From positions 248,001-312,000 of the forward strand of contig NZ_QNUJ01000001.1 in assembly GCF_003574625.1 (NCBI RefSeq): a stretch of 64,000 nucleotides of DNA, read 5' to 3'. Positions 23,384 to 43,053 of the stretch are shown piece after piece (the first letter of the stretch is position 1; each line of letters opens with the position of its first letter). A model generated the notes under the pieces. The model worked only from the letters and a program-made list of their open reading frames with translations. It was not told the DNA's origin and did no database searches. Both the position numbers and the translations under genes were made by a program. Origin of the DNA: Shinella zoogloeoides (lineage in GTDB: Bacteria > Pseudomonadota > Alphaproteobacteria > Rhizobiales > Rhizobiaceae).

Positions 23384-23587
23384 GGCGGCTCCTCGGGAAG
23401 ACGGCGGCAGAGGCTTTGGCTTGCAGCCGGGCGGATGATCTCTCCGCCGGAGCCTATCGCCGCAGCACCGGCCTGCCAAGCGGCAAACCCGCCGGAATCG
23501 CCGCTCGCCCCTTTAGAATAATCGCGCAAAATCGGAACTTAAGCATTGTCCGCGCCCTCCCGCTTTGCTATCAGGCTCCCGCCGTGT

Positions 23588-23662
23588 TGGGGCGTCGCCA
23601 AGCGGTAAGGCACCGGTTTTTGGTACCGGCATTCCCAGGTTCGAATCCTGGCGCCCCAGCCA
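23588..23662 (+). tRNA. tRNA-Gln (anticodon TTG)
   Basis: A complete cloverleaf with encoded CCA. The acceptor TGGGGCG pairs with CGCCCCA, the anticodon stem-loop CCGGT-TTTTGGT-ACCGG reads TTG, and the T-arm is CCAGGTTCGAATCCTGG. It is the left boundary of the island, with the integrase gene 167 bp downstream. That is the usual arrangement for tyrosine recombinases targeting a tRNA 3' end. Confidence 0.95.
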
Positions 23663-23733
23663 GTACTTCCTTATTTCAAGTCAAATCCCGGTTCTCCAGC
23701 ACTTCCGAGTTAGCTGGGAATCGAATTCGGGGC

Positions 23734-23782
23734 ACTGTCGTACAGGATTGTCTTACACGACTGTCGTACACAGCTGTCTTAC
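23734..23782 (+). repeat. Four direct repeats at 13-bp period before the integrase gene
   Basis: The 10-mers ACTGTCGTAC (23734), ATTGTCTTAC (23747), ACTGTCGTAC (23760) and GCTGTCTTAC (23773) are spaced exactly 13 bp apart, with consensus RYTGTCKTAC. They lie between the tRNA-Gln and the recombinase start, where arm-type sites or a recombinase autoregulatory site are expected. Confidence 0.8.
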
Positions 23783-23828
23783 GGGAAGGCGGACAAGATC
23801 CTGCTCACCCTTTCAGAGAGGGTTCAGC

Positions 23829-25850
23829 ATGACGGCAATTCAACACGTCTTCAAACGCGGTTCGGTCTACTGGTGGCGGCGGCGTTTACCGAATGGAATC
23901 GGTGCTCGTGCTTGGATGCGGCTCGAATTGAGCCTGCACACCAAGGAGATGGAGCTGGCAAGGAGAATCGCGCCCGAGGTTGCGCTCGCCAGTGATTGTC
24001 TTTTGCCAGCCTTGAAGAGCAAGATGATTTCTCCCGAAGACGCCAAGAGGATACTGATTCAGGTTGCGACGAAGCACAGCCATTATCTCGACGCCATAAC
24101 GTCCGGCCGTGACGCCCAGAAATCCCGCAGAAGCGAGACCGTGTCGGCATGGGCCATTCGGCTCTATGCGGCCCAAGGGGAGAATGCTGCCATCGGTCCG
24201 ATCGAGGAGCGCGCGTTGTACGCGGCCGGTCTGGACAACAGCATGATCGACGAGGTCAGGAATTGCCTTGAATTCCACAGGACATCCGGCTTCGCCCGCC
24301 CCGGCAGACAGAAACTCGAAGGTATCTTGAAGCAGTACAACATCCCACTTGTCGACGGTCATTTCCGGGAGGCAGAATCAATCTACATGCGCGGTATGGC
24401 GGCAGCGCTCCTTAACACGGAGCGGCGTTGGTCTGGGGTGCGGGAAGACGATCTTGCACTTGTGCAGGCCGCGCTGTCCGCTCAGGTCGTGCTACCGACC
24501 GCGATAGCCGCGACGGCGCCCTATGCACGGCCGGTCCCCGAGGAATTTCCGCTGGCTGCACAGACTCCGGCCATAGCCTGTCCGGTGGCCTGGCAACCCG
24601 GCGGGACTACAGCCGCCCAGCCTGCCGCGACACAAGAAGTTGAGGGAGATGATACCGACGGTGCCGACCTCGAAGAGGAGATGTTCGATACGGAAGGCCG
24701 TGGCCTTGTCGAACTTGTGACAAGGGCAGCGGGTGAGTGGCTGGCATCGGGCGACTGGAACAACAAGACCTGCAAGCAGCATATCGCCCTTGCAAATCTT
24801 TTCGTCCGATTCATGGGACATGATGATCCTCGAAGAATGCGGCAGTCGCACATCGCCGATTTCAAGAGTATTTTCTACAAAATGCCGAAGCACTACGGGA
24901 AATCTCCGAAGGATTTCGATTGTAGCGTCGCTGAAATCCTGAAGCGCGCGGAGAATTTGTCCGCCGATGAAAGAGGATTTTCCACCAGCACAATCAACAG
25001 ACACATGACGCAGATGGGAAATATTGTCGACGTCTGCAAGCATGCAGGTTACCCCTTCGGTCACTATGAAGGTGTTGCAGGACTGCGATCGAAGAGGAAG
25101 GGAGACGTTCGCGACGAGCGAGGCCGGTTCAGCACTGATGAACTCTCGGCTTTATTTAGTCTTCCTATCTGGAACGGCTCGGCAAGCGAGAGCGAACGAC
25201 TGGATAACGGTGAGACTGTTTTTCATGATGCGGCCTATTGGTTGCCGCTTATGGCGGTTTATAACGGCGCGCGGCGTGAGGAGAATTGCGGGCTTTTGCT
25301 TAGTGAAATTGACGACGATGGTGAATTGCCGTGTTTTCGCATCGAAAACAACTGGATTCGCAAGTTGAAGAATCCCCAATCAAAGCGCCGTACCCCGATT
25401 CACGCGGAACTTGTTCGATTGGGCTTTCTCGAATATGTGGCCGCGCTGCGTAGCTCTGGCCACAAACTGCTATTTCCGGAATTGCGAGCGGCGAATAGTG
25501 CAACGCCGATGGGAGACGTCTTCGACGACAACTGGCAGAAAATGCGTGCCGCTGCGCTGTCAAACGCCAAGGAGGAGGGGAAGGTGTTTCATTCCCTGCG
25601 ACATTGGTGCAACAACGAAATGAAGCAGGGGGATATTCGGCCTGAAATAAGGAAAGACATCCTCGGTCATTCGAACGATGACGTGAACGAAGGTCGCTAC
25701 ACAGATCCTGCACGATTGAGGGTTATGGCGCAGGCACTGTCCGTAGTTCCCGTACCGAGCGCCAAGCTGTTGCCTCATCCAATCAGGTTGATCAAGCAGG
25801 TCGTCAATCACGAGAAACGCCTCGGGCGGTCGAAGAAGTCGGACTCGTGA
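23829..25850 (+). CDS. Tyrosine recombinase/integrase (large, 673 aa)
   Basis: The catalytic domain is at the C-terminus. Residues of the R-H-R-H-Y set are seen in YNGARREENCGLLL (Arg I), FHSLRHWCNNEM (H-x-x-R), DILGHSNDDVNEGRY (His and Tyr nucleophile). A SAM-like core-binding domain precedes it (about 375-460). The N-terminus (VFKRGSVYWWRRRLPNG) is the arm-binding type found in large integrases, followed by a long linker rich in Ala/Pro/Glu. It should insert and excise the island at the tRNA-Gln. The start at 23829 gives MTAIQHVFKRG; earlier in-frame codons run back into the tRNA. Confidence 0.92.
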   Translation: MTAIQHVFKRGSVYWWRRRLPNGIGARAWMRLELSLHTKEMELARRIAPEVALASDCLLPALKSKMISPEDAKRILIQVATKHSHYLDAITSGRDAQKSRRSETVSAWAIRLYAAQGENAAIGPIEERALYAAGLDNSMIDEVRNCLEFHRTSGFARPGRQKLEGILKQYNIPLVDGHFREAESIYMRGMAAALLNTERRWSGVREDDLALVQAALSAQVVLPTAIAATAPYARPVPEEFPLAAQTPAIACPVAWQPGGTTAAQPAATQEVEGDDTDGADLEEEMFDTEGRGLVELVTRAAGEWLASGDWNNKTCKQHIALANLFVRFMGHDDPRRMRQSHIADFKSIFYKMPKHYGKSPKDFDCSVAEILKRAENLSADERGFSTSTINRHMTQMGNIVDVCKHAGYPFGHYEGVAGLRSKRKGDVRDERGRFSTDELSALFSLPIWNGSASESERLDNGETVFHDAAYWLPLMAVYNGARREENCGLLLSEIDDDGELPCFRIENNWIRKLKNPQSKRRTPIHAELVRLGFLEYVAALRSSGHKLLFPELRAANSATPMGDVFDDNWQKMRAAALSNAKEEGKVFHSLRHWCNNEMKQGDIRPEIRKDILGHSNDDVNEGRYTDPARLRVMAQALSVVPVPSAKLLPHPIRLIKQVVNHEKRLGRSKKSDS

Positions 25851-27883: not shown

Positions 27884-28324
27884 CTATTGAACCGCAAGCG
27901 CCCGCTCTATCACCCCAGCAAGCGCGCCATCGCCGTACATGCCTTCGAAGTCTGCTGAGGAGACCCGCGGCATTCCGGGATTGCGTCGACGAATGTGGCA
28001 GCTGTCTTCAAGAATGGTCCGCCCGAACGGCAGATATTCCACTTTGATGCGGTAGCCGTCCACATAGTCGAGCCTGTAGCCCTTATCGGAACTTATTTCT
28101 CCTCCATGTTTGTATGCCGCCCTTTGCAGCTCCTCCTCTATGAGGGCGTAAGCGCTTTCGTCCCTTCGCCCTGAAGCATCTCTCGAACCGAACCGGCGCG
28201 GGCCCGCCAAGGCAAGAAGTTCTATGAGAAGACGAAGCTCGAAACCGGGCGGCAGGGCCTCGTCAATCCAGATGTAGACGACATCCTCGTCGCAATATTC
28301 GTTATGATGATGCTCGATGATCAT
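27884..28324 (-). CDS. Hypothetical protein (146 aa) in the methyltransferase operon
   Basis: The frame starts at an ATG (28324) that overlaps the methyltransferase stop by 4 bp (ATGA) and ends one base before the next start. The product begins MIIEHHHNEYCDEDVVYIWI and is acidic and histidine-rich at the N-terminus. It then has an amphipathic helical region (PPGFELRLLIELLALAG, ESAYALIEEELQRAAY) and a beta-rich end (GYRIKVEYLPFGRTILE). No known family is recognised. A much longer frame running through the methyltransferase region from 29122 is an artefact of the frameshifted methyltransferase. Confidence 0.6.
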   Translation of the reverse strand: MIIEHHHNEYCDEDVVYIWIDEALPPGFELRLLIELLALAGPRRFGSRDASGRRDESAYALIEEELQRAAYKHGGEISSDKGYRLDYVDGYRIKVEYLPFGRTILEDSCHIRRRNPGMPRVSSADFEGMYGDGALAGVIERALAVQ

Positions 28325-28870
28325 ATTCCATGTCTTCCATGGTTGTCCGGGTTCGTTGTTGCCGGATAGCCGGTCGCGAGAAGGATTGCATTGCCGATCA
28401 TCTGAGGGATGAACGGCACGACGGCGTTGCCGATGGCGCGTATTCTGGCCATCATACCCGATCGCATCGAGTGCAGAGAGCAGGCGTTCCAGTCCGCGAG
28501 AGCGAATTTGGGAGATGTTTTCCAGAATGACGAGTCGTGGAGCGAGTTCTTCCGCAAGGCGGATGACCTCCCGCCAGAGCCCCGTCCTTGATCCGTCAAT
28601 GCCTTCGCCGCGACCGGCGATGCTGACGTCCTGGCAGGGAAAGCCGGCGCAGATGACGTCGACCGCGATGCCGTCGTGTTTGAGAATGTCGGCGTTGAGC
28701 GTTCGAACGTCATGATAGATGGGCGCTTCCGGCCAATGCTTTGATAGAATGCGGCGTTGGAATTCTGCGATCCCGCAGAAGGCGACGGTCCTGAACCCGC
28801 CCGTGCGCTCCAGCCCGAGACTGAAACCGCCAATTCCACTGAACGGGTCGAGAACACGCAGACTGGTCAT
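28321..28870 (-). pseudogene. DNA cytosine-5 methyltransferase, internally deleted and frameshifted
   Basis: From ATG 28870 the frame shows motif I (LDPFSGIGGFSLGLE), motif IV with the catalytic cysteine (AGFPCQDVS, Cys79) and motif VI (VILENIS). It then reads LSALDAIGYDG and leaves the family pattern near 28450. The next frame over carries a typical C-terminal motif X (RIRAIGNAVVPFIPQMIGNAILLATGY) and ends at 28321. Motif VIII and the target-recognition domain are missing, and the two parts are out of frame. The whole is about 180 codons against 300-450 for active enzymes. The ATG overlaps the upstream stop, as in an intact operon. It cannot be an active methylase as read. Confidence 0.85.
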
Positions 28871-29517
28871 GCGGGCTCCCGCTTGCGCGCCTTCCTGTCC
28901 TTCCAGCCCGTAAAGCGGTTCCACTCCGCGACAAGGATCGGAAACTCGGGAACTTGCGGCGGACACCACACGACACCGAGCGGCAGGTTGAACAGCCCGA
29001 TCAGCATCTCGTGCAGATGGGGATATGTCGTGATCGCCTCGCTGAAAGAGACAAGCGTTCGGCGTGCGAGCGTCCCGCTCATCGTCCGGTTGAGATTCAC
29101 GACGCAATGGACCTTCGGCCAAGCGTCGTCGCGCGGAAAAATCTGATATTCATACTGACGGCTTTGCGTGGAGCCGTCATGCTCGGTCCTGTTAAGGAGA
29201 TAGGGCTCGAACACACTCTTGTCCTGGCCGTCGCCGCTCCACCGGCCGACAATGGCGATCTTGCGGCAGAAGAGGCTGAGGTCGCCAGCCATTTCGCTTC
29301 GGATTTTCTCCTCGTGCCTGGTCGCCAACGCCATCAGCGGATGACCGGCCGGCGCGGGCTTTCCATCGAGAAGGATACTGAGAGCGTCCGGCGTGACAAT
29401 GATCGCCGCATCCTCGCCCGGAGCGAGGAGCTTGCCCTGATATTCGATCTTCCGCTTCTTGCTGCTCTCGCATGCCTTCTCGAATTGCGCCGGGAAGTCT
29501 GGTGTCTTTAGTATCAT
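28867..29517 (-). CDS. Hypothetical protein, paralogue of the gene at 27224
   Basis: The 216-aa product is the first gene of the operon and shares the landmarks listed for the 27224 gene (TPDFP, PGEDAAIIVTPD, VGRW, FEPY, IFPRD, LPLGVVWCP, FPILVAEWN). It is more basic and has a KDRKARKREP tail. Its stop overlaps the methyltransferase start by 4 bp. The two paralogues have diverged considerably, so the duplication is old. No family or reaction is recognised. Confidence 0.65.
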   Translation of the reverse strand: MILKTPDFPAQFEKACESSKKRKIEYQGKLLAPGEDAAIIVTPDALSILLDGKPAPAGHPLMALATRHEEKIRSEMAGDLSLFCRKIAIVGRWSGDGQDKSVFEPYLLNRTEHDGSTQSRQYEYQIFPRDDAWPKVHCVVNLNRTMSGTLARRTLVSFSEAITTYPHLHEMLIGLFNLPLGVVWCPPQVPEFPILVAEWNRFTGWKDRKARKREPA

Positions 29518-31451: not shown

Positions 31452-31799
31452 ATGACGCAACCCGCTTCCAATGTCATTCCCTTCCCGATCACGCGAACCC
31501 TGCCGGTGATGACGGCGCCGTCTTTGCAGGAGCGGGCGGCCGCGTTCACCGCTGCGGTCGAATCTGCCGGTGAGCACAGCGCCCTGTCTGAGGACTGCGC
31601 TGCACATGTCGCCGCGGTCGTGCGCGCCTCGATCCGGTTTGCCCGCCGCAAGGGCGTTCGTCTCGATAGCCTGCCGCCGCAGTTGCGCGTCTGGCTGATC
31701 GATCTCTGCAATCAGGGTGACCCGACCTGCCGCATGATCCGCGACTGGCTTTCCGGAAACCGCCTGTTCTGTGCGTCCCTCGTGAAGGAGACTGTATGA
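31452..31799 (+). CDS. Hypothetical protein (115 aa) in the AAA+/M41 operon
   Basis: The product has an extended N-terminus (NVIPFPITRTLPVMTAPS) and then a helical domain (LQERAAAFTAAVESAGEHSALSEDCAAHVAAVVRASIRFARRKGVRLDSLPPQLRVWLIDLC). It has three cysteines. GAGGAG precedes the ATG, and its stop overlaps the AAA+ start (ATGA), so it is coupled to it. No family is recognised; the tight coupling suggests a partner or adaptor of the AAA+ protein. Confidence 0.6.
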   Translation: MTQPASNVIPFPITRTLPVMTAPSLQERAAAFTAAVESAGEHSALSEDCAAHVAAVVRASIRFARRKGVRLDSLPPQLRVWLIDLCNQGDPTCRMIRDWLSGNRLFCASLVKETV

Positions 31800-33826
31800 T
31801 GGACACGCTGACGGATCGGATGACGCGCTATCTCCTGAAGCGCCTTCGCCGCCGCGCCGTGCTGACGCTCTATGAGCGGGCGGGCGATGCGGGATTGCTG
31901 ACGTCCGCCTTCATCGAGGGGGAGGAGCGGAAAGGGACGATCTGGAAGGTGACCGATCAGGCCTGGCATTTGCTGACCGGCAATCCCGATCGGGATCGCG
32001 CGACCGTCGCGCGGATGATGGGCGTGGGCCGCGCTCCTCGTCAACGCGCCGACGAACCCATCACCTTTATCGTGCCGGATGAGGATGCGGTCGACGGAGT
32101 TGTGACGTTCGAATGCCGAACCGTGGGCGCATCGGAGGATCAGCCGAAGGGCAGGCGAAGGAAAGTCCAAAGGGTCAGCACAGCGGGTAGCCGAAGCGCT
32201 GGCACGCTGGATATCGACTTTCCCTATGTCACTGCGCTTCTTCGCGAGCATCTGCCGCCGCCAAATCCCGTCCGTGCGGCCGTTGCGCTGCTCGTTGCCC
32301 GCGCCGTCGGCGCCAGTCTGCCTGATATACAGACGCTGATCGAGGCGCTGCGTCCCGCAGCGCCGTTTGTCCTGTTGAAGGCGCCCGTGCCGCGCTTCGA
32401 GCTGTGCCTCGGCATGATGCTTGAGGATGGCTTGCTCCTGCCGTTCCGGGCGGCGCTCGAAGACGTGCTTCGTGATAATCCTCTGTCCGGCCGGTACAGG
32501 CAGCAGCAGTCCGCGGTGAATCGGCGCAAGCTGAAGACGCTTTCGGGTATCGCAGTCGAGAATACGGACGATCAGGACATCCGGAAGCAGTTTCGTCAGG
32601 CGCTCCTCGATGAGCCTGCGCCGATCCTCCTTGCCGACGAGACCCGTTCCGCCCTGACGCCGGTCGTCACCGAGACCGCCGATCTCGTCCTCGAATGTGG
32701 TGGGATCGATTATGAGATGCTCGCGGAGCTGCTGCATGTCTGCTGTGGCACTCCCCCGAAGCAAAGCCTGATCGCCATGGATGACATGGCGTTCGATCCG
32801 GAAAGCCTGACCCTCGACGACGTCGCGCTTGCAGTTCGCCCGGGGAGGGCGGTCGAGCAGACGCTGTCGGTGCTGGCCATGCTCGCCGAGCGCTCGGCGG
32901 CCGAGGAAGAGGAAGAGCGGGAGGGCAAGGATGAGCGAGGCCGGAAACAGCGGTCGGGAAAGGGGCGGGCCAGCGAGACGACGTCGCAAAGGAATGCCGG
33001 AAAGAAGAAGCCGCAGGATGTCGGTATCGAAGTGATCGAGCCGGTCACCCCGCCGGATAGCGACGCGGCCGCGGCTGATGCGGCGGGAACACCGTCACAG
33101 CAGGATCGTCTGCTGTCCGTCGAGACGCTTGCCGGTTACGGCCCGGCGCGTGACTGGGCGCTCAACCTCAAGGCTGATTTGCTGCTCTGGAAGCAGGGGA
33201 AACTGCGCTGGGACGAGATGACGACGAAGCTTCTGTTGTCGGGGCCGCCCGGAACCGGCAAGACGATCTTTGCCCGGGCGCTCTGCAACACGCTCGAGGT
33301 TCCCTTGCTGGCGACATCGGTCGCCCGCTGGCTCGAGCCCGGCTATCTCGGCGATGTGCTGACACGCATGTCGGCATCCTTCATCGTCGCCACGGAGCGC
33401 GCGCCGTCAATCCTGTTCATCGACGAGTTGGACAATATTGGCAGGCGGCAGGGCGCGGGCAGCAGAAACTACGACGACTACTGGGCGTCGCTGATCAACC
33501 GCATGCTCGAACTGCTGGACGGGGCTTCGAAGACGGAAGGCATCATCGTCGTCGGGGCCACCAACCTTCCGGAGAGGATCGATCCGGCGCTGTTGCGCTC
33601 CGGCCGGCTGGAAACCCACGTCCAGATTCCAATGCCCAACCTGGAGGCATTGGTGGGCATCCTCGGTCATCACCTCGGCTCCGATCTCCATGCGGTGCTC
33701 GCTTCCGCGCCTGTGGCGTACGCACGGCGACGTCTGCGCCCGCCGCCGCCCATAAATGGTAAGCCGCCAGTCCGGCATGAGCCGGATTACAAGCCGCAAG
33801 CAGAGAAAGGACGCCGTCATGACTGA
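31796..33826 (+). CDS. AAA+ ATPase, FtsH-type ATPase module with long N-terminal region
   Basis: The 676-aa product has about 440 N-terminal residues of no recognised family, soluble, ending in a low-complexity charged stretch (EEEEEREGKDERGRKQ, KGRASETTSQRNAGKKK). A AAA+ core follows: Walker A LLSGPPGTGKTIFA near 482-489, Walker B SILFIDELDNIG near 539-546, sensor-1 VGATNLPERIDPALL and an arginine finger in RSGRLETHVQI. The alpha-helical lid that should follow is missing; the protein ends in a basic tail. The lid and an M41 domain are in the next gene. No transmembrane helix is seen, unlike FtsH itself. An AAGGAG site precedes ATG-ATG. Confidence 0.85.
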   Translation: MMDTLTDRMTRYLLKRLRRRAVLTLYERAGDAGLLTSAFIEGEERKGTIWKVTDQAWHLLTGNPDRDRATVARMMGVGRAPRQRADEPITFIVPDEDAVDGVVTFECRTVGASEDQPKGRRRKVQRVSTAGSRSAGTLDIDFPYVTALLREHLPPPNPVRAAVALLVARAVGASLPDIQTLIEALRPAAPFVLLKAPVPRFELCLGMMLEDGLLLPFRAALEDVLRDNPLSGRYRQQQSAVNRRKLKTLSGIAVENTDDQDIRKQFRQALLDEPAPILLADETRSALTPVVTETADLVLECGGIDYEMLAELLHVCCGTPPKQSLIAMDDMAFDPESLTLDDVALAVRPGRAVEQTLSVLAMLAERSAAEEEEEREGKDERGRKQRSGKGRASETTSQRNAGKKKPQDVGIEVIEPVTPPDSDAAAADAAGTPSQQDRLLSVETLAGYGPARDWALNLKADLLLWKQGKLRWDEMTTKLLLSGPPGTGKTIFARALCNTLEVPLLATSVARWLEPGYLGDVLTRMSASFIVATERAPSILFIDELDNIGRRQGAGSRNYDDYWASLINRMLELLDGASKTEGIIVVGATNLPERIDPALLRSGRLETHVQIPMPNLEALVGILGHHLGSDLHAVLASAPVAYARRRLRPPPPINGKPPVRHEPDYKPQAEKGRRHD

Positions 33827-34562
33827 AGCTGCCGATCATTCCCGGTCTCCGGGTAGCTTGCGTCCGCTCGCACTGCTGGCGCTTGGCCGGACGGGCGCCG
33901 ATATCGAGCGTCTCGTTCGCGAAGTCAGGAGCAAGCTGCGGCGTGAAGGACGAGCGATGGTCTGGGACGATCTCGAAACGGCCCTGCGCGATGGACAGGC
34001 GGCGATGTCCGACGATCTGCGCCGGCGGGCAAGCGTGCATGAGGCGGGACATGCATTGGTCTACACGTTGACCGGCATTGCCGAGGTGCAGGCCGCGAGC
34101 ATCGGTCTCCACGGCCTCGGTATGGTCGCAACCGTCGCGAACGATTGTTTGCCGCAGAACGAGACCTGGCTGACGAACGCGATGGCCGCGATCCTGGCGG
34201 GGCGGACGGCGGAGCTGTTGCTGTTCGGCGAAACGCTTGCAGGGGCTGGCGGTGCAGATGAGAGCGATCTGGCGCGGGCGACGGACATGGCGCTGGCCGC
34301 GGAGACGCGGCTCGGCTTCTCCCGCCATCAACCGCTGCTCTACCGCCCGCCCACCGCGGCGATGAACGAGCTCGCCCTTGATCGCGACCTAGCCGAGCGG
34401 GTTCATGCACGGCTCCTTGCTGCCGAGGCCATTGCAAGGCAACTGCTGGAGGAGCATCGGAACCTGCACCGCGAGATCGCCACACGTCTGAGTGCAGTCG
34501 GGATCATGTCGGGCGACGAACTGCGGGAAATAATCAACGCCGCAAAGTGCGAGGCTGGCTGA
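33819..34562 (+). CDS. M41 (FtsH-type) zinc peptidase with AAA lid
   Basis: The 247-aa product begins with the helical AAA+ lid (LGRTGADIERLVREVRSKLRRE, about 22-43), then an M41 peptidase. The zinc motif is HEAGH (H74, E75, H78) in RRRASVHEAGHALVYTL. The third ligand is D150 in GGADESDLARATDMA, equivalent to FtsH's G-A-x-N-D-I-x-x-A-T. The start ATG at 33819 has AGAAAGGA seven bases ahead and overlaps the AAA+ stop by 8 bp. Its own ribosome site shows it is a real second cistron, not a frameshift fragment. Together with the AAA+ protein it could rebuild a soluble FtsH-like protease. Confidence 0.85.
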   Translation: MTEAADHSRSPGSLRPLALLALGRTGADIERLVREVRSKLRREGRAMVWDDLETALRDGQAAMSDDLRRRASVHEAGHALVYTLTGIAEVQAASIGLHGLGMVATVANDCLPQNETWLTNAMAAILAGRTAELLLFGETLAGAGGADESDLARATDMALAAETRLGFSRHQPLLYRPPTAAMNELALDRDLAERVHARLLAAEAIARQLLEEHRNLHREIATRLSAVGIMSGDELREIINAAKCEAG

Positions 34563-35631: not shown

Positions 35632-36594
35632 ATGCCGGTCATGGATTTGCCCGTCGCCTCGCCCGTTGCCGTCCCGGCCTTCACCGCCGCCCTGCCCGGC
35701 TGGGCGCTGCCGCGCGGGCGCGAGCCGGACGCGCTTGCGGCGGCCTTTTCTGCCGGCATCGCGTTGAAATCGCTGGATGATCTTGTCCGCTCCGCGCCCG
35801 CCTGGGCCGGCTGCTGGCGCTCCCGCCAGGCCCTCAAATGTGCCGCCGTCGCGGTGCGGCTGATGGGTCGCAGCGAGGACGAGCCGGCGTTGCGCGATGC
35901 CGTTCTGCTGACGGGCGCCGGCGACGATCCGGGGCCGGCCGGCCGGATGCTTTTGGCTACCAAAAGACTTTCCGTCCGAAAGCCCGCCTTCTCCTCGAAG
36001 GCGGTGGCGGAGCTCGCCGATCTGTTGGGGCTGGCCTGGGACGATCGGCTCACCGCGGCCGTCGACCATGCCGACGACGCGCTGCAATCCGGCCGTCCGG
36101 CGCCGTTCGCGGCTGCGGACCTGGTCACGGCCATCCACGCCGCGCGCCCGGATGCCGAGCCGCTCGCCTGGATGCTTGCCGACCTGCTGATCGCCGCGTT
36201 GCTGAAATGGGATTGTGCCGTGCCGCTGCTGATGGCGGAGCGCTACGGGCCGGCCTTCAAGACGCTTGGGGGCAGGGGCCGCGTGCGCCCGGGGGAACCC
36301 GCCTTTGCCCGCGCCGTCTGCCTTGCTCTCGTCGAGGCAACAGGCGCCGCCCTGCGCACCGCCGGCGAGATTTCTCGCCGCGCCGAGACGCTGATCGTCA
36401 CCGCACCAAAGGTTCGCACCAAGGGCGCCGGCGCCGTCATCCAGGCGCTTCTCAATGAGGACGCCGTGGCGGCCTCGGCGCCCGGCAGCAATCTCTCGCG
36501 CTGGGCAGCGACCCGGCTGTTCGACAGGCTGGAAGGCTTTGGCGCCGTCCGCGAATTGTCCGGTCGCAGTTCGTTCCGGATCTATGGGTTATGA
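35632..36594 (+). CDS. DUF1403 family protein
   Basis: The 320-aa product ([68 protein letters not shown]...) matches the DUF1403 family, which occurs on rhizobial plasmids and islands beside a ScpB-like gene. The pattern is mostly helical. ATGs at 35632 and 35641 are both possible starts. Its stop overlaps the ScpB-like start (TATGA). Function unknown; the constant pairing points to a chromosome- or plasmid-maintenance role. Confidence 0.75.
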
Positions 36595-37301
36595 TGATGA
36601 GCGAACCAGAGACGGCCAGCACGCGACGAGGCCGCAGATCGACATCGGAGGACGAAGTCCTCCTGGATCGAGAACTGGTGGATCTGCCGCCGGACCTGCG
36701 CTGGCGCGAATGGATGCTGAGGGTCGAGGCGGTGATCTTTGCCGCGGCCGAGCCGGTCGGCCGTGAGACGCTGGCGCGCGTCGTCGGCAAGGACTGCAGC
36801 ATCGACCTCTTGATCGACGACCTGCAGGAGGAACTCCGTGACCGGCCCTACGAGATCGTCTTCGTCGCCGGCGGCTGGCAGCACCGAACGCGCTCGCGTT
36901 TCGCCGTTTCGATCAGGGCGTCGCAGGCCTCGACGCGGAGCGCGGCGCCGGCGCTGTCCGACTTCGAGGCCATGGTGCTGATGGCGATCGCCTATTTCCA
37001 GCCGATCACCCGCGGCGACCTGTCGAAAATCTTCGGCAAGGAGGTCAGCCGCGACACGATCGGTGCGCTGCGTGGCGCCGGCTTCCTCGCCTCCGGCCCG
37101 CGCAGCCCGACGCCGGGTGCGCCCTATACCTATGTCACGACGAAACAGTTCCTCACCGCGTTTGCTATGGAGACGCTGCGCGACCTGCCGGATATTGAGG
37201 CGCTGGAGGATGCGGGGCTCTTAGGTCGAGGAACGTTGCACTATGGTGAGCGAGCGCCGGCCAAGTTGATCGGGGATGATGAAGAGCCCCAAGATGTATA
37301 G
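36591..37301 (+). CDS. ScpB-like segregation/condensation protein (mobile version)
   Basis: The 236-aa product has the two winged-helix modules of ScpB. The first is [68 protein letters not shown] and the second starts [39 protein letters not shown]. In condensin complexes ScpB binds the kleisin ScpA on SMC. No ScpA or SMC lies on the island, so it must use the host SMC or do something else. It overlaps the DUF1403 gene by 4 bp. Confidence 0.8.
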
Positions 37302-37358
37302 GTAGCGTTGTCAAGGGTCGGTATCGCGTGATTATCGGTACTCGTTGGGCTTGACGAA

Positions 37359-37892
37359 ATGGCTCCTAATTTGGCTAGAATGGCTTGCGAAGAACGAACG
37401 GGGAACATATCTTTAGTGTCAAAGGGCGGCCATTCTTCATATGAAGGCTTGATGTTTGCCGTCGGCGTCCTGGCGGGACTGATCTTTGCAATCTGCGTAT
37501 TGGTTGGGTTCCATTTGGGGCCGGAGGATCTTCAGAGCGTGACAATGTCCTATGCTGACTTAGCTGCGATAATGTTGGGAGCCGTGTCAGTCATCGTCAC
37601 GGTGCTTGGTGTGGGGATCGCTGTGCTGGCCCTATGGGGGTATGCGCAGTTTAAGCAATCAGCCGCGAAGGCTGCCCACGATCACGTAGATGACGAACTA
37701 AAGGCAGGAGTACTCCGTGACCAAATCAGCCATTTGATCGTGGCGGAAGTTACCAAGCAAATGGACGACGGCAAGCTTCGCAAGATTATGGAGGAGCGCG
37801 TCGACCGACAGAGAATGCTAGGCGCGAGTCAACGCGCGGCAGAGCAGGCCTCTGATCTGATCGGCGATGAGGAAAAAGAATATGGCGAGTGA
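37359..37892 (+). CDS. Two-helix membrane protein upstream of the ImmA/IrrE gene
   Basis: The 177-aa product has two transmembrane helices (FAVGVLAGLIFAICVLVGF and LAAIMLGAVSVIVTVLGVGI) and a cytoplasmic helical tail (about 100-177) with charged heptads. There is no catalytic motif. It ends 9 bp before the ImmA/IrrE start, so the two are likely one unit. Such small membrane proteins with a cytosolic coil are common effectors in phage-defence loci, but no family is recognised here. Confidence 0.65.
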   Translation: MAPNLARMACEERTGNISLVSKGGHSSYEGLMFAVGVLAGLIFAICVLVGFHLGPEDLQSVTMSYADLAAIMLGAVSVIVTVLGVGIAVLALWGYAQFKQSAAKAAHDHVDDELKAGVLRDQISHLIVAEVTKQMDDGKLRKIMEERVDRQRMLGASQRAAEQASDLIGDEEKEYGE

Positions 37893-37901
37893 GGTTCGAA
37901 A

Positions 37902-38402
37902 ATGATGAGTAGGGAGTGGTCAAGTCTGCCACCTGCCACCAGAGCTTCGCTCGAAGAAGTCCAAGCAGCCGTGCCTGTCAAATTGTCGGCTCTCGCACGA
38001 CTTCTGGGGCTGACGATTAAATCTGCGACGCTGGCCGCAGGAATTTCCGGGGAGATACGCCCGGATCCGGCTAATCCGGGTCGGTACGTCATCAGGGTCA
38101 ATCGGCATGATTCACCTGAGCGGCAGCGCTTCACCATCGCTCATGAGATTGGACACTTCCTACTGCACAGAGAGCAGATTGGGGACGGCATCACTGACGA
38201 TGTACTCTATCGTTCAACGCTTTCCGATCGAAGGGAGGCAGAGGCCAATCGAATTGCTGCCGACATATTGATGCCTGATCGCTTAATCAACCAGGCTCTT
38301 GACAGAGCAAAACTTATTGGTGTGGATGACGTCCCTGAGTACCTTGCTCGTCAATTTGAAGTATCAGATGCTGCGATGAAAATTCGACTCGGTTTGAAAT
38401 AG
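37902..38402 (+). CDS. ImmA/IrrE family metallopeptidase
   Basis: The 166-aa product has the zinc motif HEIGH (H81, E82, H85) in RFTIAHEIGHFLLHREQ and the following E-A-E-A-N-R-I-A-A-D-I-L-M-P signature that supplies the third ligand. Members such as ImmA cleave a specific repressor to switch on mobile-element or stress genes. No helix-turn-helix domain is fused. It lies between the membrane protein and the beta-family gene, 17 bp from the latter. Confidence 0.88.
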   Translation: MMSREWSSLPPATRASLEEVQAAVPVKLSALARLLGLTIKSATLAAGISGEIRPDPANPGRYVIRVNRHDSPERQRFTIAHEIGHFLLHREQIGDGITDDVLYRSTLSDRREAEANRIAADILMPDRLINQALDRAKLIGVDDVPEYLARQFEVSDAAMKIRLGLK

Positions 38403-38419
38403 CGGGAGGGGCGAGCTAG

Positions 38420-39490
38420 TTGCGCGATCTACATGACGTCAGTTACGTACCTCTATTGTCTGTCCGGCCGGCGGAGCTTCGCGCACTGAAAGAGCTTCCG
38501 AATAGGAGCAAAGACCGTCTCTTTCCATATTCTACATTGCGCCCTTGGACGAGCGCGCGCCACCTCGACACTGTTCTTTCCAAGATCGACGAGGCCTACC
38601 CTGATCGTCCGCTGATCGTCGATGCTGGTTTACCGGATGCGGGGGAGACGGGGACACGGCCAGTGCATTTGGAGTTGCAGGAGTTGCGAGAACCGACCGA
38701 TGGCTATCGGAATTGGTTTGAATTCCTTGAAGGCAGGGAGAATTTCGTTCCTGCCTTGCAGTTGTCGGATCCGGACGAGCTCGAGCGACAAATCGAACTG
38801 TTGGCGTCGCTCGGCCGTGGGATAGCCGCGAGGTTTCCAAGTCACCTGTTTGGGACGGCGGCGGGTGTCGCCCAGGCAATCGGGGAATATGTGCCCGGTG
38901 ATCAAATTTGCATCGTCCTCGATTTTGAGCAGGCTAGCCGGCATTTGCTTACTCAAGCATTGACTACGAAGAACACGATCGAAAACATACTTGAGGCCGT
39001 TCCCGCGTGTGCGGTATCGATTTCAGCCTCGTCGTTCCCTATGGATTTTACAGACCGTACCGAGCAGGAGATATACGAGCGGCGTTTCTTCAACGAAGTT
39101 CGAGAACAGCTGCCGGGCTCAAATCTCATCTACAGCGATCGCGGCAGCGCACGGGCTGAACGTCAGAATGGCGGCGGCGGAGCTCCCGCCCCTCGGGTTG
39201 ACCTCGCCACGGTGGGACAATGGGGCTTCTTCAGAGAGATCGATGTTGGCGACCGTGACCAAGCCTACTTCGATGCTGCTACCCGTGCCATCAACTCCCC
39301 ATACTGGGACGAGGATCTCCATGTATGGGGAACGCAGATGGTGCAGAGAACCGCGGCGGGAGATGAAACAGCCATCGTGTCGCCGGCGCGCTCAACCGCT
39401 GCGCGAATCAACATACATCTTCAGCAGCAACTCTTTTATGACGACCCAAATAGTAAATATGACACCGACGAGGATTGGAGCGACGATTGA
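38420..39490 (+). CDS. Beta family protein (T4 beta-protein-like)
   Basis: The 356-aa product starts at a TTG with GGAGGGG eight bases ahead. It opens YVPLLSVRPAELRALKELPNRSKDRLFPYSTLRPW, the start of the phage T4 'beta protein' family (PF14350-type). The family is predicted to be a TIM-barrel-like protein and is repeatedly found beside ImmA/IrrE and sce7725/sce7726-type genes. An acidic tail (YDTDEDWSDD) closes it. No function has been shown for the family. The gene ends 7 bp before the convergent sce7726-like gene. Confidence 0.8.
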   Translation: MRDLHDVSYVPLLSVRPAELRALKELPNRSKDRLFPYSTLRPWTSARHLDTVLSKIDEAYPDRPLIVDAGLPDAGETGTRPVHLELQELREPTDGYRNWFEFLEGRENFVPALQLSDPDELERQIELLASLGRGIAARFPSHLFGTAAGVAQAIGEYVPGDQICIVLDFEQASRHLLTQALTTKNTIENILEAVPACAVSISASSFPMDFTDRTEQEIYERRFFNEVREQLPGSNLIYSDRGSARAERQNGGGGAPAPRVDLATVGQWGFFREIDVGDRDQAYFDAATRAINSPYWDEDLHVWGTQMVQRTAAGDETAIVSPARSTAARINIHLQQQLFYDDPNSKYDTDEDWSDD

Positions 39491-39497
39491 AATGATC

Positions 39498-40235
39498 TTA
39501 GCTCGGATGCGCAGACTGCCGACGCGATAACCAGAGTTCCCACCGCGATTTCTGTTCTTCGCTATGATCATTTGCGCGCTTGCGGGTCGATGCGAAGCGG
39601 CTGAGAACCGGGAGGTAGCTAGCTGCTACCGTCCTACGTCGCGAAACGAGTGCCCAGAACGATTTGCTGGTTGCGCTGTAGCGCTGCTTAAACTCAGCAA
39701 GGAGAGCTGAGCGTAGTTCATCTAACGGGTGTCCTCGTAGAACTTCCATAAGTTCGCGACGCGAATGGCGCCCATCGAACCGCATAGCGAGCCGTTGCAG
39801 CGTCGTCTTCGGCAACGCGTGGAGAATTGCGGACTTCCTGGTCTCTTCGTCAGGCCGGTCAAGCGACTGTCGACCTCGAACCTCAGTTATGAATCCCGCG
39901 TCGGAAATAGAGTACAGCGAAACCGCCGCACAAAGCATTTTTGCCGCGGACGCGCGGTGCTTTTCCGCGACGAGTACATAGACATCGTCGAACACTTGAA
40001 GATAGGCGGCCGTTTGACCCTGTAGGCGCGATAAAGAATCGAACTCGCTCTTGATCTCCACACCTACGAACCGCCCGCGTTCAAGGATTGCAAGATCAGC
40101 CCGACGCGTCGCCCCGTGCACCTGATACTCGTTCGAAACCAACGAGCGGCGAGTGATCTTGCCGTCACTCAGCAAGAACTCCAAAAATTTCGCTTTTAGC
40201 GTGGCCTCGGTGGCACGAGAATTGACGATATCCAT
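39498..40235 (-). CDS. sce7726-like protein with PD-(D/E)xK nuclease core
   Basis: The 245-aa product has RRADLAILERGRFVGVEIKSEFDSL. D47 and E60-x-K62 on adjoining strands form a textbook PD-(D/E)xK nuclease core, followed by a Q-T-A-A-Y-L-Q-V-F-D-D-V-Y-V-L-V helix-strand. The pattern RATEATLKAKFLEFLLSDGKITRRSLVSNEYQV matches the sce7726 family start. It is transcribed towards the beta-family gene and ends 7 bp from it. A role as nuclease effector of a defence locus is inferred from the fold and neighbours. Confidence 0.8.
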   Translation of the reverse strand: MDIVNSRATEATLKAKFLEFLLSDGKITRRSLVSNEYQVHGATRRADLAILERGRFVGVEIKSEFDSLSRLQGQTAAYLQVFDDVYVLVAEKHRASAAKMLCAAVSLYSISDAGFITEVRGRQSLDRPDEETRKSAILHALPKTTLQRLAMRFDGRHSRRELMEVLRGHPLDELRSALLAEFKQRYSATSKSFWALVSRRRTVAASYLPVLSRFASTRKRANDHSEEQKSRWELWLSRRQSAHPS

Positions 40236-40488
40236 GGCGCGACCTCTAGCCTAACAAGATGCTTCCTTGCCACTTATTTCAAGTGGTGAGTTTTCACGAA
40301 TGAGTCATCGTTCAGGGCAGGAAAGCACACCTCGATTAACGACGAGTGGATCGTCACTGCAATATTGAGCGGCAAGCCGACACTTGCCGAATCCGACGCG
40401 ACGGCTCGGGGTCACGCCGCAGGTGGCGCGTCGGATCGTGACGGAGCTGGGCCCGCGCGAGGTGACGGGAAGGTGGTTTCGGGCGTGC
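40236..40488. other. Spacer at the provisional right end of the island
   Basis: This holds the promoter of the sce7726-like gene and the 12-mer CTTATTTCAAGT (40273-40284) that also follows the tRNA-Gln. A short GC-rich frame on the plus strand (about 40360-40495), ending in RRIVTELGPREVTGRWFRAC, looks like a C-terminal gene remnant and overlaps nothing intact. Confidence 0.4.
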
Positions 40489-43053
40489 TCAAAACCTATC
40501 TGATAAGATTGCTTGGATCATGCCTCCAGCTTGGAGAATTTCCACCTCCCGCTGGGTTTGAACCGCAGCCGTTCCGACAAGTCGCGTGCGGTGCTTATCG
40601 GCATTTTGAATGACCACGCTAACTTCACCTCGTGGTGCGACGTCGGTCGCATCAACTTCGATCCTACACTGCGGGCCGATGGATATGGGAATGGCAGTAT
40701 CGATCGCGATGGGAAGTACGCCCATGCCGATCAGGTTCGTGCGATGGATCCGTTCGAAGCTGCGAGCGATGACGGCGCGCACGCCGAGCAGCGCGACACC
40801 TTTCGCCGCCCAGTCGCGCGAGGAGCCGGCGCCGTATCGCTCGCCGGCAACAAGGACAACAGAGTGGCCGTCCTGCCGGTAGCGTTCGGCGATTTCCCAG
40901 AGTGGGCCTTCCTCCATGCTCGGCGCATGAATGGTGCGTGACGCGGGGTGACCATCAATCAGGAGATTGCGGGCGGCGCGATTGTCGAAGAGGCCGCGCA
41001 CCATTGCCTCCCAATTGCCGCGCCGGGCGGCATAGACATTGAGATCGTCGGCGGGGTCGCCGCGCGAAACGAGGTGACGACCGGCATAACTTGCGGCGCT
41101 GATCTGGCCGGCCGGGGAAATATGGTCGGTCGTCATGTCGTCCCCGAGCACGAGCAGGGGGTGCGCGCTATAGGCGCCGAGGCGGCTGGCTGGCTGTGCC
41201 GAGGCAAAGGGCGGACGACGTAGATAGGTGGAGGCGTCATTCCAGGGAAAGAGCGCGGATGCAGGGGCATCGAGTGCCTGCCAGGCCTTGTTTTCGGCGG
41301 CTTGCGAAAAGGCCTGCCGGAAATCGGCCGGCTCGGAAAAGCGCTGCACGACGGTGTCGATCTCATCGGCGGAAGGCAGGAGGTCGCAAAGACGGATCAC
41401 CTCGCCCTGCGGCCCCCGTGCAACGTCCGCATTCATCGGATCGACGGCGAATTTCCCCAACAGCGACAGCGCGACAACGAGCGGCGGCGCGGCAAGGAAG
41501 CCGAATTGAAGGGCGGGATGGACGCGGCCGGGAAAATTGCGGTTGCCGGAGAGCAGGGCGGCGGCGACCGTGCCCTCGGCGATCGCCTCTGCCATGTCGG
41601 CCTGTAACGGGCCTGAATTGCCGATGCAGGTCGTGCAGCCATGGCCGACGATGCCGAAGCCGAGGGCTTCCAGGTCGGCAAGCAGGCCGCTGCGGGAGAG
41701 AAAGCGTTCCGCAGATGGCGAGCCGGGGGCGAGCGAGGTTTTGACCCAGGCCGGTGGGCGCAGGCCCAGGCGACGCGCGTTTCGCGCGACGAGCCCCGCG
41801 GCAGCCAACAGGCGCTGATCGGAGGTGTTGGTGCAGCTTGTGATGGCGGCGATGGCGATCGCACCGTCCGGGATGGTTTTTCCCGGTTCAAAGGGGCGAC
41901 CGCTTGCGGCCTCCAGCGCCTCGGCGGCGGCGGAGATCGCCACCTTGTCCTGCGGCCGGCGCGGTCCAGCGAGAAGGGGTGTGATCGCCGAAAGCTCGAG
42001 CTCAATCACGCGGCTGTATCGTGGTACTGCTGCTGGCGTGAACCAAAGGCCCAGGGCCTTTGCAGCGGCCTCAACGAAGGCACAGTGTTCGGGGCTGCGA
42101 CCCGTCTGGCGTAAATAGGCGACAGTCTGTCTGTCGATCGGGAAGAAGCCTGTCGAAGCGCCGTATTCGGGTGCCATATTGGCGACCACGGCGCGATCGC
42201 CGCAGGAGAGCGTAGAAAGGCCTTCACCGAAAAACTCGACGAACTCTCCCGAAACGCCGTGTTTCCTGAGAAGGTGCGTGACCTCAAGGGCAAGGTCCGT
42301 CGACAGCACGCCCGGCCCGAGCCGACCGGTGAGCCGGACGCCGACAACATCCGGCAGTCGGATCGTCACCGGCATCCCGAAGAAGACGCTTTCGGCTTCG
42401 AGGCCCCCGACCCCCCAGGCAAGCACGCCGATGCCGTTGATCATCGGCGTATGGCTGTCCGTTCCGATCAGCGTGTCGGGCGCGGCAAAGCGCCGGCCAT
42501 CGCGCTCCGCGACATCTATCACGGTCGCGAGCTGTTCGAGGTTCAGCGTGTGCATGATGCCGGTACCGGGTGGATGCACGCGCACGCCCGGAAGCGCGGT
42601 GGTTGCCCATTTCATCAGCCTGTAGCGCTCGCCGTTGCGCTCCATCTCGCGGCTCATATTGTGTTCGCGGGCGCCGCTGCGGCCATACCAGTCGACCGCC
42701 ACGCTGTGGTCCACGGAGACATCGATGGGAAGCATGGGCGTCAGGCTCGATGGGTCGCCGCCGGCCTCCGCGATCGCGTCGCGCATGGCGGCGATATCCA
42801 CGAGCGCCGGAACGCAGGTCGTATCGTGCATGAGGACGCGGGAGGGATGGAAATCCACCTCGGCCTCGCTCGTACCTTCGGTGAGCCAATTCCACAGCGC
42901 ATCGGTGAAGGCGGGCAGCCGGTCGGGATCGCGGCGGGCGACGTTTTCGAGGAGGATGCGCAATACGAACGGCAGGCGCTCGACATCCGCGAATGCCGCG
43001 CGAAGATCGATGGCCCCGACGGCACCAGTCGCAGTTTCGATCTGTATGGCCAT
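40489..43053 (-). CDS. Aconitate hydratase, AcnA-type (secondary, divergent)
   Basis: The 854-aa product has the 4Fe-4S ligand motifs SCTNTSDQ and GHGCTTCIGNSGPL and the aconitase signatures VDHSVAVDWYGR, GTDSHTPMINGIGVLAWGVGGLEAE and GERYGAGSSRDWAAKG. It is shorter than housekeeping AcnA (about 890 aa), and several core blocks differ (GTGIMHTLNLEQLA in place of the usual I-x-H-Q-V-N-L-E). It is therefore probably a dedicated paralogue for this cluster, perhaps acting on a citrate-like acid. The ATG at 43053 with GGAG eight bases ahead is preferred over 43065. One of the three matching 24-bp sites lies 15 bp upstream. Confidence 0.85.
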   Translation of the reverse strand: MAIQIETATGAVGAIDLRAAFADVERLPFVLRILLENVARRDPDRLPAFTDALWNWLTEGTSEAEVDFHPSRVLMHDTTCVPALVDIAAMRDAIAEAGGDPSSLTPMLPIDVSVDHSVAVDWYGRSGAREHNMSREMERNGERYRLMKWATTALPGVRVHPPGTGIMHTLNLEQLATVIDVAERDGRRFAAPDTLIGTDSHTPMINGIGVLAWGVGGLEAESVFFGMPVTIRLPDVVGVRLTGRLGPGVLSTDLALEVTHLLRKHGVSGEFVEFFGEGLSTLSCGDRAVVANMAPEYGASTGFFPIDRQTVAYLRQTGRSPEHCAFVEAAAKALGLWFTPAAVPRYSRVIELELSAITPLLAGPRRPQDKVAISAAAEALEAASGRPFEPGKTIPDGAIAIAAITSCTNTSDQRLLAAAGLVARNARRLGLRPPAWVKTSLAPGSPSAERFLSRSGLLADLEALGFGIVGHGCTTCIGNSGPLQADMAEAIAEGTVAAALLSGNRNFPGRVHPALQFGFLAAPPLVVALSLLGKFAVDPMNADVARGPQGEVIRLCDLLPSADEIDTVVQRFSEPADFRQAFSQAAENKAWQALDAPASALFPWNDASTYLRRPPFASAQPASRLGAYSAHPLLVLGDDMTTDHISPAGQISAASYAGRHLVSRGDPADDLNVYAARRGNWEAMVRGLFDNRAARNLLIDGHPASRTIHAPSMEEGPLWEIAERYRQDGHSVVLVAGERYGAGSSRDWAAKGVALLGVRAVIARSFERIHRTNLIGMGVLPIAIDTAIPISIGPQCRIEVDATDVAPRGEVSVVIQNADKHRTRLVGTAAVQTQREVEILQAGGMIQAILSDRF

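Follow-up and report, generated by a model that had tools for sequence, protein, structure and literature searches.

Two published anti-phage systems, gop-beta-cII and PD-lambda-2, are the closest described counterparts of a four-gene cassette at positions 37359..40235 of a 64,000-nucleotide stretch of Shinella zoogloeoides DNA (contig NZ_QNUJ01000001.1, positions 248,001 to 312,000; hereafter the window). In the sections of PMC9122126 considered here, gop-beta-cII is reported to confer protection against lambda and P1, and gop is cited as toxic without beta. In satellite phage P4, gop (133 residues, two hydrophobic stretches by eye) is followed by beta and by a convergent cII, which is assigned to the sce7726 family in the record. 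PD-lambda-2, as described in the corresponding sections of PMC9519451, consists of a HigB-like protein, a helix-turn-helix (HTH)-peptidase protein, and a third component with kinship to a P4 antitoxin. On its own, the HTH-peptidase protein is toxic, and the HigB-like protein rescues from this toxicity; the third protein is required for defense and dispensable for neutralization. PMC2701414 predicted three-component systems that combine a COG2856 protease with an Xre protein and a toxin.

The window cassette joins features of these two separately found systems, and we found a worked-out mechanism for neither. A first-pass annotation, made from the sequence alone, had suggested a defense locus here and could name no published mechanism for co-occurring beta and sce7726 proteins. 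This last point does not stand, as gop-beta-cII is a published anti-phage system containing both. The suggestion of a defense locus itself appears well founded, given that PADLOC names the beta and cll components of gop-beta-cII and that the corresponding site in a relative holds defense-type genes. We found no description of the cassette's three-gene core in open PubMed Central texts.

Composition of the cassette

Three genes lie in a row on the forward strand, and a fourth converges on them. Gene A (MemA; 37359..37892, +) encodes a two-helix membrane protein of 177 residues. Gene B (37902..38402, +) encodes an ImmA/IrrE (M78) zinc protease of 166 residues without an HTH domain. Gene C (38420..39490, +) encodes a Beta protein of 356 residues with a TTG start, and gene D (39498..40235, −) a 245-residue member of the sce7726/'cll' family with PD-(D/E)xK-type residues. 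The gaps A/B, B/C, and C/D measure 9, 17, and 7 bp. All four open reading frames (ORFs) listed in the first-pass annotation are complete, and its lower-GC stretch is likewise recovered (0.55-0.56 in 2-kb blocks over 37001-40000 versus 0.63 in the flanking 36001-38000 and 40001-42000), though GC is just as low in window blocks at about 24-27 kb and at 28-30 kb. PF14350 and sce7726 are each represented by a single gene in the host genome, and M78 by two. Three of these four genes sit in the cassette, so their adjacency is not due to chance, an explanation that the recurrence described below also excludes.

Gene A consists of two hydrophobic helices and a helical charged tail, with an alternative GTG start at 37416. 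Its Pfam and NCBIfam matches are weak and stay below cut-off, and PADLOC returns nothing for it at E <= 0.1. In gene B, Peptidase_M78 (E 1.3e-22) is the sole Pfam domain, and the HEIGH motif occupies residues 81-85; its zinc motif HExxH (H81, E82, H85) is invariant in 18/18 aligned rows. The two-helix protein and the HEIGH peptidase of the first-pass annotation are therefore both confirmed. The PADLOC PD-Lambda-2_B model matches only the peptidase part of B (E 2.9e-8). By sequence, the closest solved relatives of B are the M78 regulatory proteases CapP (7t5t, E 4.7e-14) and IrrE (3dte, E 1.2e-13). CapP partners the repressor CapH in CBASS, whereas the cassette has neither CapH nor a CBASS gene.

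Gene C is recognized as Beta_protein by Pfam (PF14350, E 1.5e-56) and as 'beta' by PADLOC (E 8.1e-42), with a far weaker match to PD-Lambda-2_C (E 1.8e-7). It matches 4 of 50,697 phage records, three P4 entries and one Pasteurella phage, and is 26% identical to P4 beta over 94% of its length. The TTG start and the Beta assignment made earlier are correct; the suggested T4 origin is ruled out by these matches, which make gene C kin of satellite P4. The predicted structure of C (predicted local distance difference test, pLDDT, 83.8; predicted template modeling score, pTM, 0.85) has strands alternating with helices, and its tail falls below 50. A Foldseek search with this model gives 17 matches at E <= 0.001, 12 of them KDO8P synthase entries (TMq 0.31-0.41), which we take to be TIM barrels. 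The model thus points to a fold resembling barrel enzymes at low TM, and no enzyme activity is claimed. Among Protein Data Bank (PDB) sequences, no convincing relative of Beta was found (best E 0.96).

Gene D matches NF033832 (sce7726 family, E 3e-29) and PADLOC 'cll' (E 7.1e-34). Residues E36, D47, E60, and K62 are invariant in 8/8 aligned sequences, which, together with the convergent strand, agrees with the PD-(D/E)xK protein (D47, E60-x-K62) seen in the first pass. The only Foldseek match of the D model (pLDDT 87.0) at E <= 0.001 is 3dnx (E 1.9e-4), a function-unknown protein whose fold is presumably nuclease-like; PDB sequences contain no convincing relative (best E 0.25).

The cassette shares with gop-beta-cII a hairpin membrane protein upstream of a Beta protein, a convergent sce7726 protein, and the order of these genes, and in the beta tree the window protein falls on the same side as that of P4. 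It differs in having an ImmA/IrrE gene between the membrane protein and beta and in a gene A that is not recognizable as Gop by sequence. Like PD-lambda-2, it has a single operon in which a small partner gene goes with genes for an M78 protease and a beta protein. However, the partner is a membrane hairpin rather than HigB, the protease lacks the HTH fusion and belongs to another ImmA clade, beta falls in the other main clade, and a convergent D is present. Because neither Gop nor the HigB and HTH components are matched, the locus, judged from its sequences, strictly belongs to neither system and is placed between both.

Recurrence and relationships

PF14350 was found in 24/394 genomes of the family (22 above the cut-off), 13/398 of the phylum, and 12/385 of the class; these samples overlap, and each contains the window's own genome. 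It is present in 3/21 genomes of the genus and absent from the one same-species genome. We annotated 53 beta loci with our own profiles, 47 from genome searches (window included) and six from similarity searches (P4, Pmp11, three plasmids, and one metagenome-assembled genome). This set excludes the sub-cut-off G106 and G236, one fragment in G754 and three more in G1044, L005 (considered the same plasmid as L076), two other P4 records, and plasmid matches in Persicobacter and Aeromonas.

A, B, and beta occur in this order on one strand at 15 of the 53 loci (13/47 and 2/6), with profile kin of A directly before ImmA and beta at 14 genome or plasmid loci besides the window. D is convergent in eight of the 15, and ImmA is split over two ORFs in L075. 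A scan of viral contigs with A-B-type betas returned 10 loci, nine of which carry A-B-beta; the tenth, L140, starts at the contig end with ImmA-beta, and D is present in four of the 10. Because the query was built from A-B-type betas, this arrangement is partly selected. With three single betas as queries, the viral-contig scan returned no relative, and with P4 beta it returned three near-copies, the genome-contig scan adding one relative. L142 and L143 are phage-like contigs of about 12 kb carrying A-B-beta-D; one gene matches phrog_4352, and the L142 gene also weakly matches a minor head/receptor-binding family.

The A profile matches 17/388 family genomes, in seven of them at beta loci. In the remaining 10, ImmA directly follows A in nine; the weakest match, L127, lacks it. 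Eight of these nine loci have no beta or D within the 8-12 kb covered, and the contig of the ninth, L135, ends just past ImmA. As A-B pairs occur without beta, A-B is a unit of its own.

A tree was built from the 50 betas longer than 300 residues (fragments L003, L068, and L105 omitted). Eighteen of them accompany a two-helix protein and a short ImmA, 15 by the A profile and three (L082, L091, and L104) by position and hydropathy. Fourteen accompany an ImmA longer than 230 residues, one a short ImmA only, and two are gop loci, named as such. The other 15 have no ImmA directly upstream, although in five of these (L004, L076, L078, L079, and L098) the stretch contains an M78 gene at another place. 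The 15 A-B betas form a single clade (support 100/99). The association that the first-pass annotation proposed to tabulate therefore recurs, in one beta clade and on viral contigs, with D as an optional member. The window's side of the tree (97/97) comprises the A-B, gop, and L082-group betas and six betas without ImmA, and the opposite side (100/99) all 14 long-ImmA betas and eight without ImmA.

Long ImmA proteins are PD-lambda-2-like where scanned: HTH was found in 2/3 by Pfam, with the 255-residue protein of L064 lacking it, and 3/3 match PD-Lambda-2_B in PADLOC. In L085, a PD-Lambda-2_A match (E 4.4e-27) precedes the long ImmA gene. In an ImmA tree of 56 rows, the 14 long beta-linked ImmAs form one clade (97/89), and the short ImmAs group with four longer ones (99/94). 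Within this short group, beta-linked and free-standing proteins are intermixed, with many open branches. Pairwise distances co-vary for beta-ImmA (r 0.89), beta-A (0.83), and ImmA-A (0.83; n = 23 of 25, L075 and L140 lacking the full set), and for beta-D (0.88) and ImmA-D (0.81; n = 10). None of these correlations was reached in 2000 permutations. Such co-variation would also be expected if the cassette descended as a block.

Several related layouts were encountered. Another genome of the genus carries a P4-type row (L162, 3816-6072) of a gop-like 135-residue hairpin, beta, and convergent cll. In L084 (4295-7120), a domain scan identifies a DUF6932 gene, which is followed by a gene of the HTH-ImmA type, by beta, and by a convergent cll; L065 and L095 show the same order by eye. 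The DUF6932 position is taken by a DUF4917 gene in L089 and by an acetyltransferase gene in L090.

Proposed function

We regard it as roughly an even call that the cassette is a mobile module of gop-beta-cII type directed against phages, in which A would be the effector, B and C its control, and D an optional nuclease. Most economically, the locus would encode a membrane effector that Beta restrains and the protease regulates, with a nuclease as an optional addition, and the functional steps that we infer are those of an abortive-infection module. A would be an inner-membrane hairpin that, once released, harms the membrane or stops growth. The zinc protease B and Beta would control A, with A and B forming a toxin-antitoxin-like pair able to exist alone and Beta coupling this pair to phage infection. 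Infection would relieve the restraint, the switch possibly being cleavage by B of A, Beta, or another protein. D would contribute an accessory PD-(D/E)xK nuclease. Speaking for this reading are the P4 gene order of hairpin gop, beta, and convergent cII, the recurrence of A-B-beta within a single beta clade and on viral contigs, the A-B pairs lacking beta, the co-variation of the genes, the tail of Beta, the defense-type genes found at the cassette site in a relative, and the published behavior of gop-beta-cII and PD-lambda-2. The proposed principle recalls that of Sbash gp30/gp31 and lambda RexAB, for which the sections of PMC6426596 considered here propose that a cytosolic protein activates a membrane channel upon infection. 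Those systems differ in that their membrane proteins have four predicted helices and a protease is absent, and no homology is claimed.

The C-terminal tail of Beta suggests how such a restraint could operate. Gene C ends in an acidic, W-containing tail. A tail of this kind, with W in the last five residues, is present in 25/25 A-B-type betas (15 plus 10 viral ones, the latter including two near-identical pairs), and 24 of them have W-x-D. It is found in 0/14 long-ImmA betas (L090 has W near its end and no acids) and in 0/4 betas of the L082 group. Among the 15 betas without an adjacent ImmA, L103 has an acidic W tail and L098 a W without acids. Of the gop-type betas, those of Pmp11 and L162 (the latter ending in DDDWEGEF) have an acidic W tail, and that of P4 is acidic without W. 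Gop-type loci can thus show this tail although no ImmA lies beside their beta, which makes the membrane protein a likelier partner for it than ImmA. The disordered tail would probably dock on this membrane partner and keep it quiet.

Several points weigh against this scheme. Gene A has no detectable sequence kinship to gop: hhalign gives a probability of 0.5-0.6%, and the PADLOC gop model, which matches P4 gop at E 4.8e-70, misses A. The gops themselves barely align (P4-Pmp11, E 0.17), so a shared ancestry of A and Gop may escape sequence comparison. P4 gop scored E 0.0076 in a three-sequence hmmsearch for A kinship, a value of little meaning, and A aligns with the two-helix proteins of L082, L091, and L104 at a hhalign probability of 42% over 29 columns. 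The acidic W tail is not universal, since P4 beta lacks the W. The free-standing A-B pairs lie among ordinary-looking genes, with no visible defense islands, and Shinella sp. PSBB067 has transporter-like genes (by eye) at the cassette site. Finally, toxicity in PD-lambda-2 resides in the ImmA-bearing protein and not in its partner, which means that A and B may have exchanged roles.

This exchange of roles defines the strongest competing explanation, in which B is the toxin and A an antitoxin that holds the protease at the membrane until infection frees B to cut an essential protein. The toxicity of the ImmA-bearing protein and its neutralization by a partner (PMC9519451, in the sections cited above), the existence of A-B pairs without beta, and the retention of HExxH in every aligned row all favor it. 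We nevertheless consider it unlikely, as B lacks the HTH domain of the PD-lambda-2 protease and belongs to another ImmA clade, and as P4-type loci have a hairpin protein and no ImmA gene beside beta.

Less probable still is a stabilizing, toxin-antitoxin-type addiction module of mobile elements that beta and D regulate. Free-standing A-B pairs at eight loci and the presence of beta loci on plasmids and phage-like contigs speak for it. However, close beta-containing systems protect against phage, according to the portions of PMC9122126 and PMC9519451 considered, and defense-type genes occupy the cassette site in a relative.

The scheme of the first-pass annotation, in which the peptidase and beta sense infection, D destroys phage or cell DNA, and A is a sensor or anchor, fares worse and seems improbable. 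The invariant residues of D, its compatible predicted fold, and its convergence on beta in 35/50 tree loci speak for it. Yet profile searches miss D in 7/15 genome or plasmid and 6/10 viral A-B-beta-type loci, so a nuclease as the working end is not supported. More probably, A acts as the effector, with beta as a sensor or a restraint.

That A and B form a membrane signaling pair controlling transcription elsewhere, with no toxic part, is very hard to credit: M78 regulators are known, and the sections of PMC2701414 considered here report that ImmA is needed for proteolytic inactivation of the repressor ImmR, but the cassette has no HTH partner, and at the sole sigma-70-adjacent ImmA locus, on an Azospirillum plasmid, ImmA and beta are divergent rather than in one operon. 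At that locus (L004, 3008-6813), a small gene and a sigma-70 gene accompany ImmA, and all three are divergent from beta-sce7726.

Returning to the module with A as effector, a broader reading, held somewhat more tentatively, is that a single modular family extends from gop-beta-cII to PD-lambda-2, with Beta adapting toxin-antitoxin-like units to phage defense. These units would be the Gop hairpin, the hairpin with a bare ImmA, HigB with HTH-ImmA, and perhaps DUF6932 or an acetyltransferase with ImmA. The hairpin/ImmA pair would then be a free-standing toxin-antitoxin type, for which we found no description in open PubMed Central texts, and the beta tail would be the contact with the membrane partner. 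The locus offers a comparative handle on Beta, as tail, effector, and protease change with the partner and the core stays. It also predicts a simple membrane-effector/protease pair that occurs with and without beta.

Genomic site and neighboring genes

The S. zoogloeoides plasmid p1_Teo12 is 98.2% identical to the window from 22001 (the query start) to 37216, inside the ScpB ORF. Past 37216, the plasmid carries LmuA-, LmuC-, and LmuB-like (Lamassu), AbiC/AbiP-like, and DpdE-like genes (L150, 17746-26537). Similarity to PSBB067 likewise stops at 37216. At the right edge of the cassette lies the C-terminal remnant of an RHE_PE00001-type gene (40399..40485, +), identified by tblastn (70% over 30 residues, E 7.8e-5 in a two-sequence search). 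From 40699 on, the right flank, with acnA, matches another Shinella plasmid. These flank comparisons, together with the patchy occurrence of PF14350 in the genus, mark the cassette as accessory and its site as one that receives defense genes in at least one relative. Promoter- and terminator-like sites around it are near the shuffle means, and the direct repeats detected in a search for attachment repeats look like chance.

Beta-sce7726 adjoins an RHE_PE00001-type gene on three rhizobial plasmids (L002, L003, and L005), which come from Neorhizobium, A. tumefaciens, and S. fredii. For Neorhizobium the gene is named by its domains, and the A. tumefaciens beta is truncated. In L005, ScpB and DUF1403 also stand next to beta-sce7726, as in the window.

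Elsewhere in the window, an FtsH-like protein is encoded at 31796-34562 as two overlapping ORFs, an AAA ATPase (676 residues) and an M41 peptidase (268 residues). At 23565-25850, an integrase-type ORF (DUF6538, weak Phage_integrase) adjoins tRNA-Gln (23588-23662), and a C5 DNA methylase lies at 27884-29122; this region is probably an integrative element.

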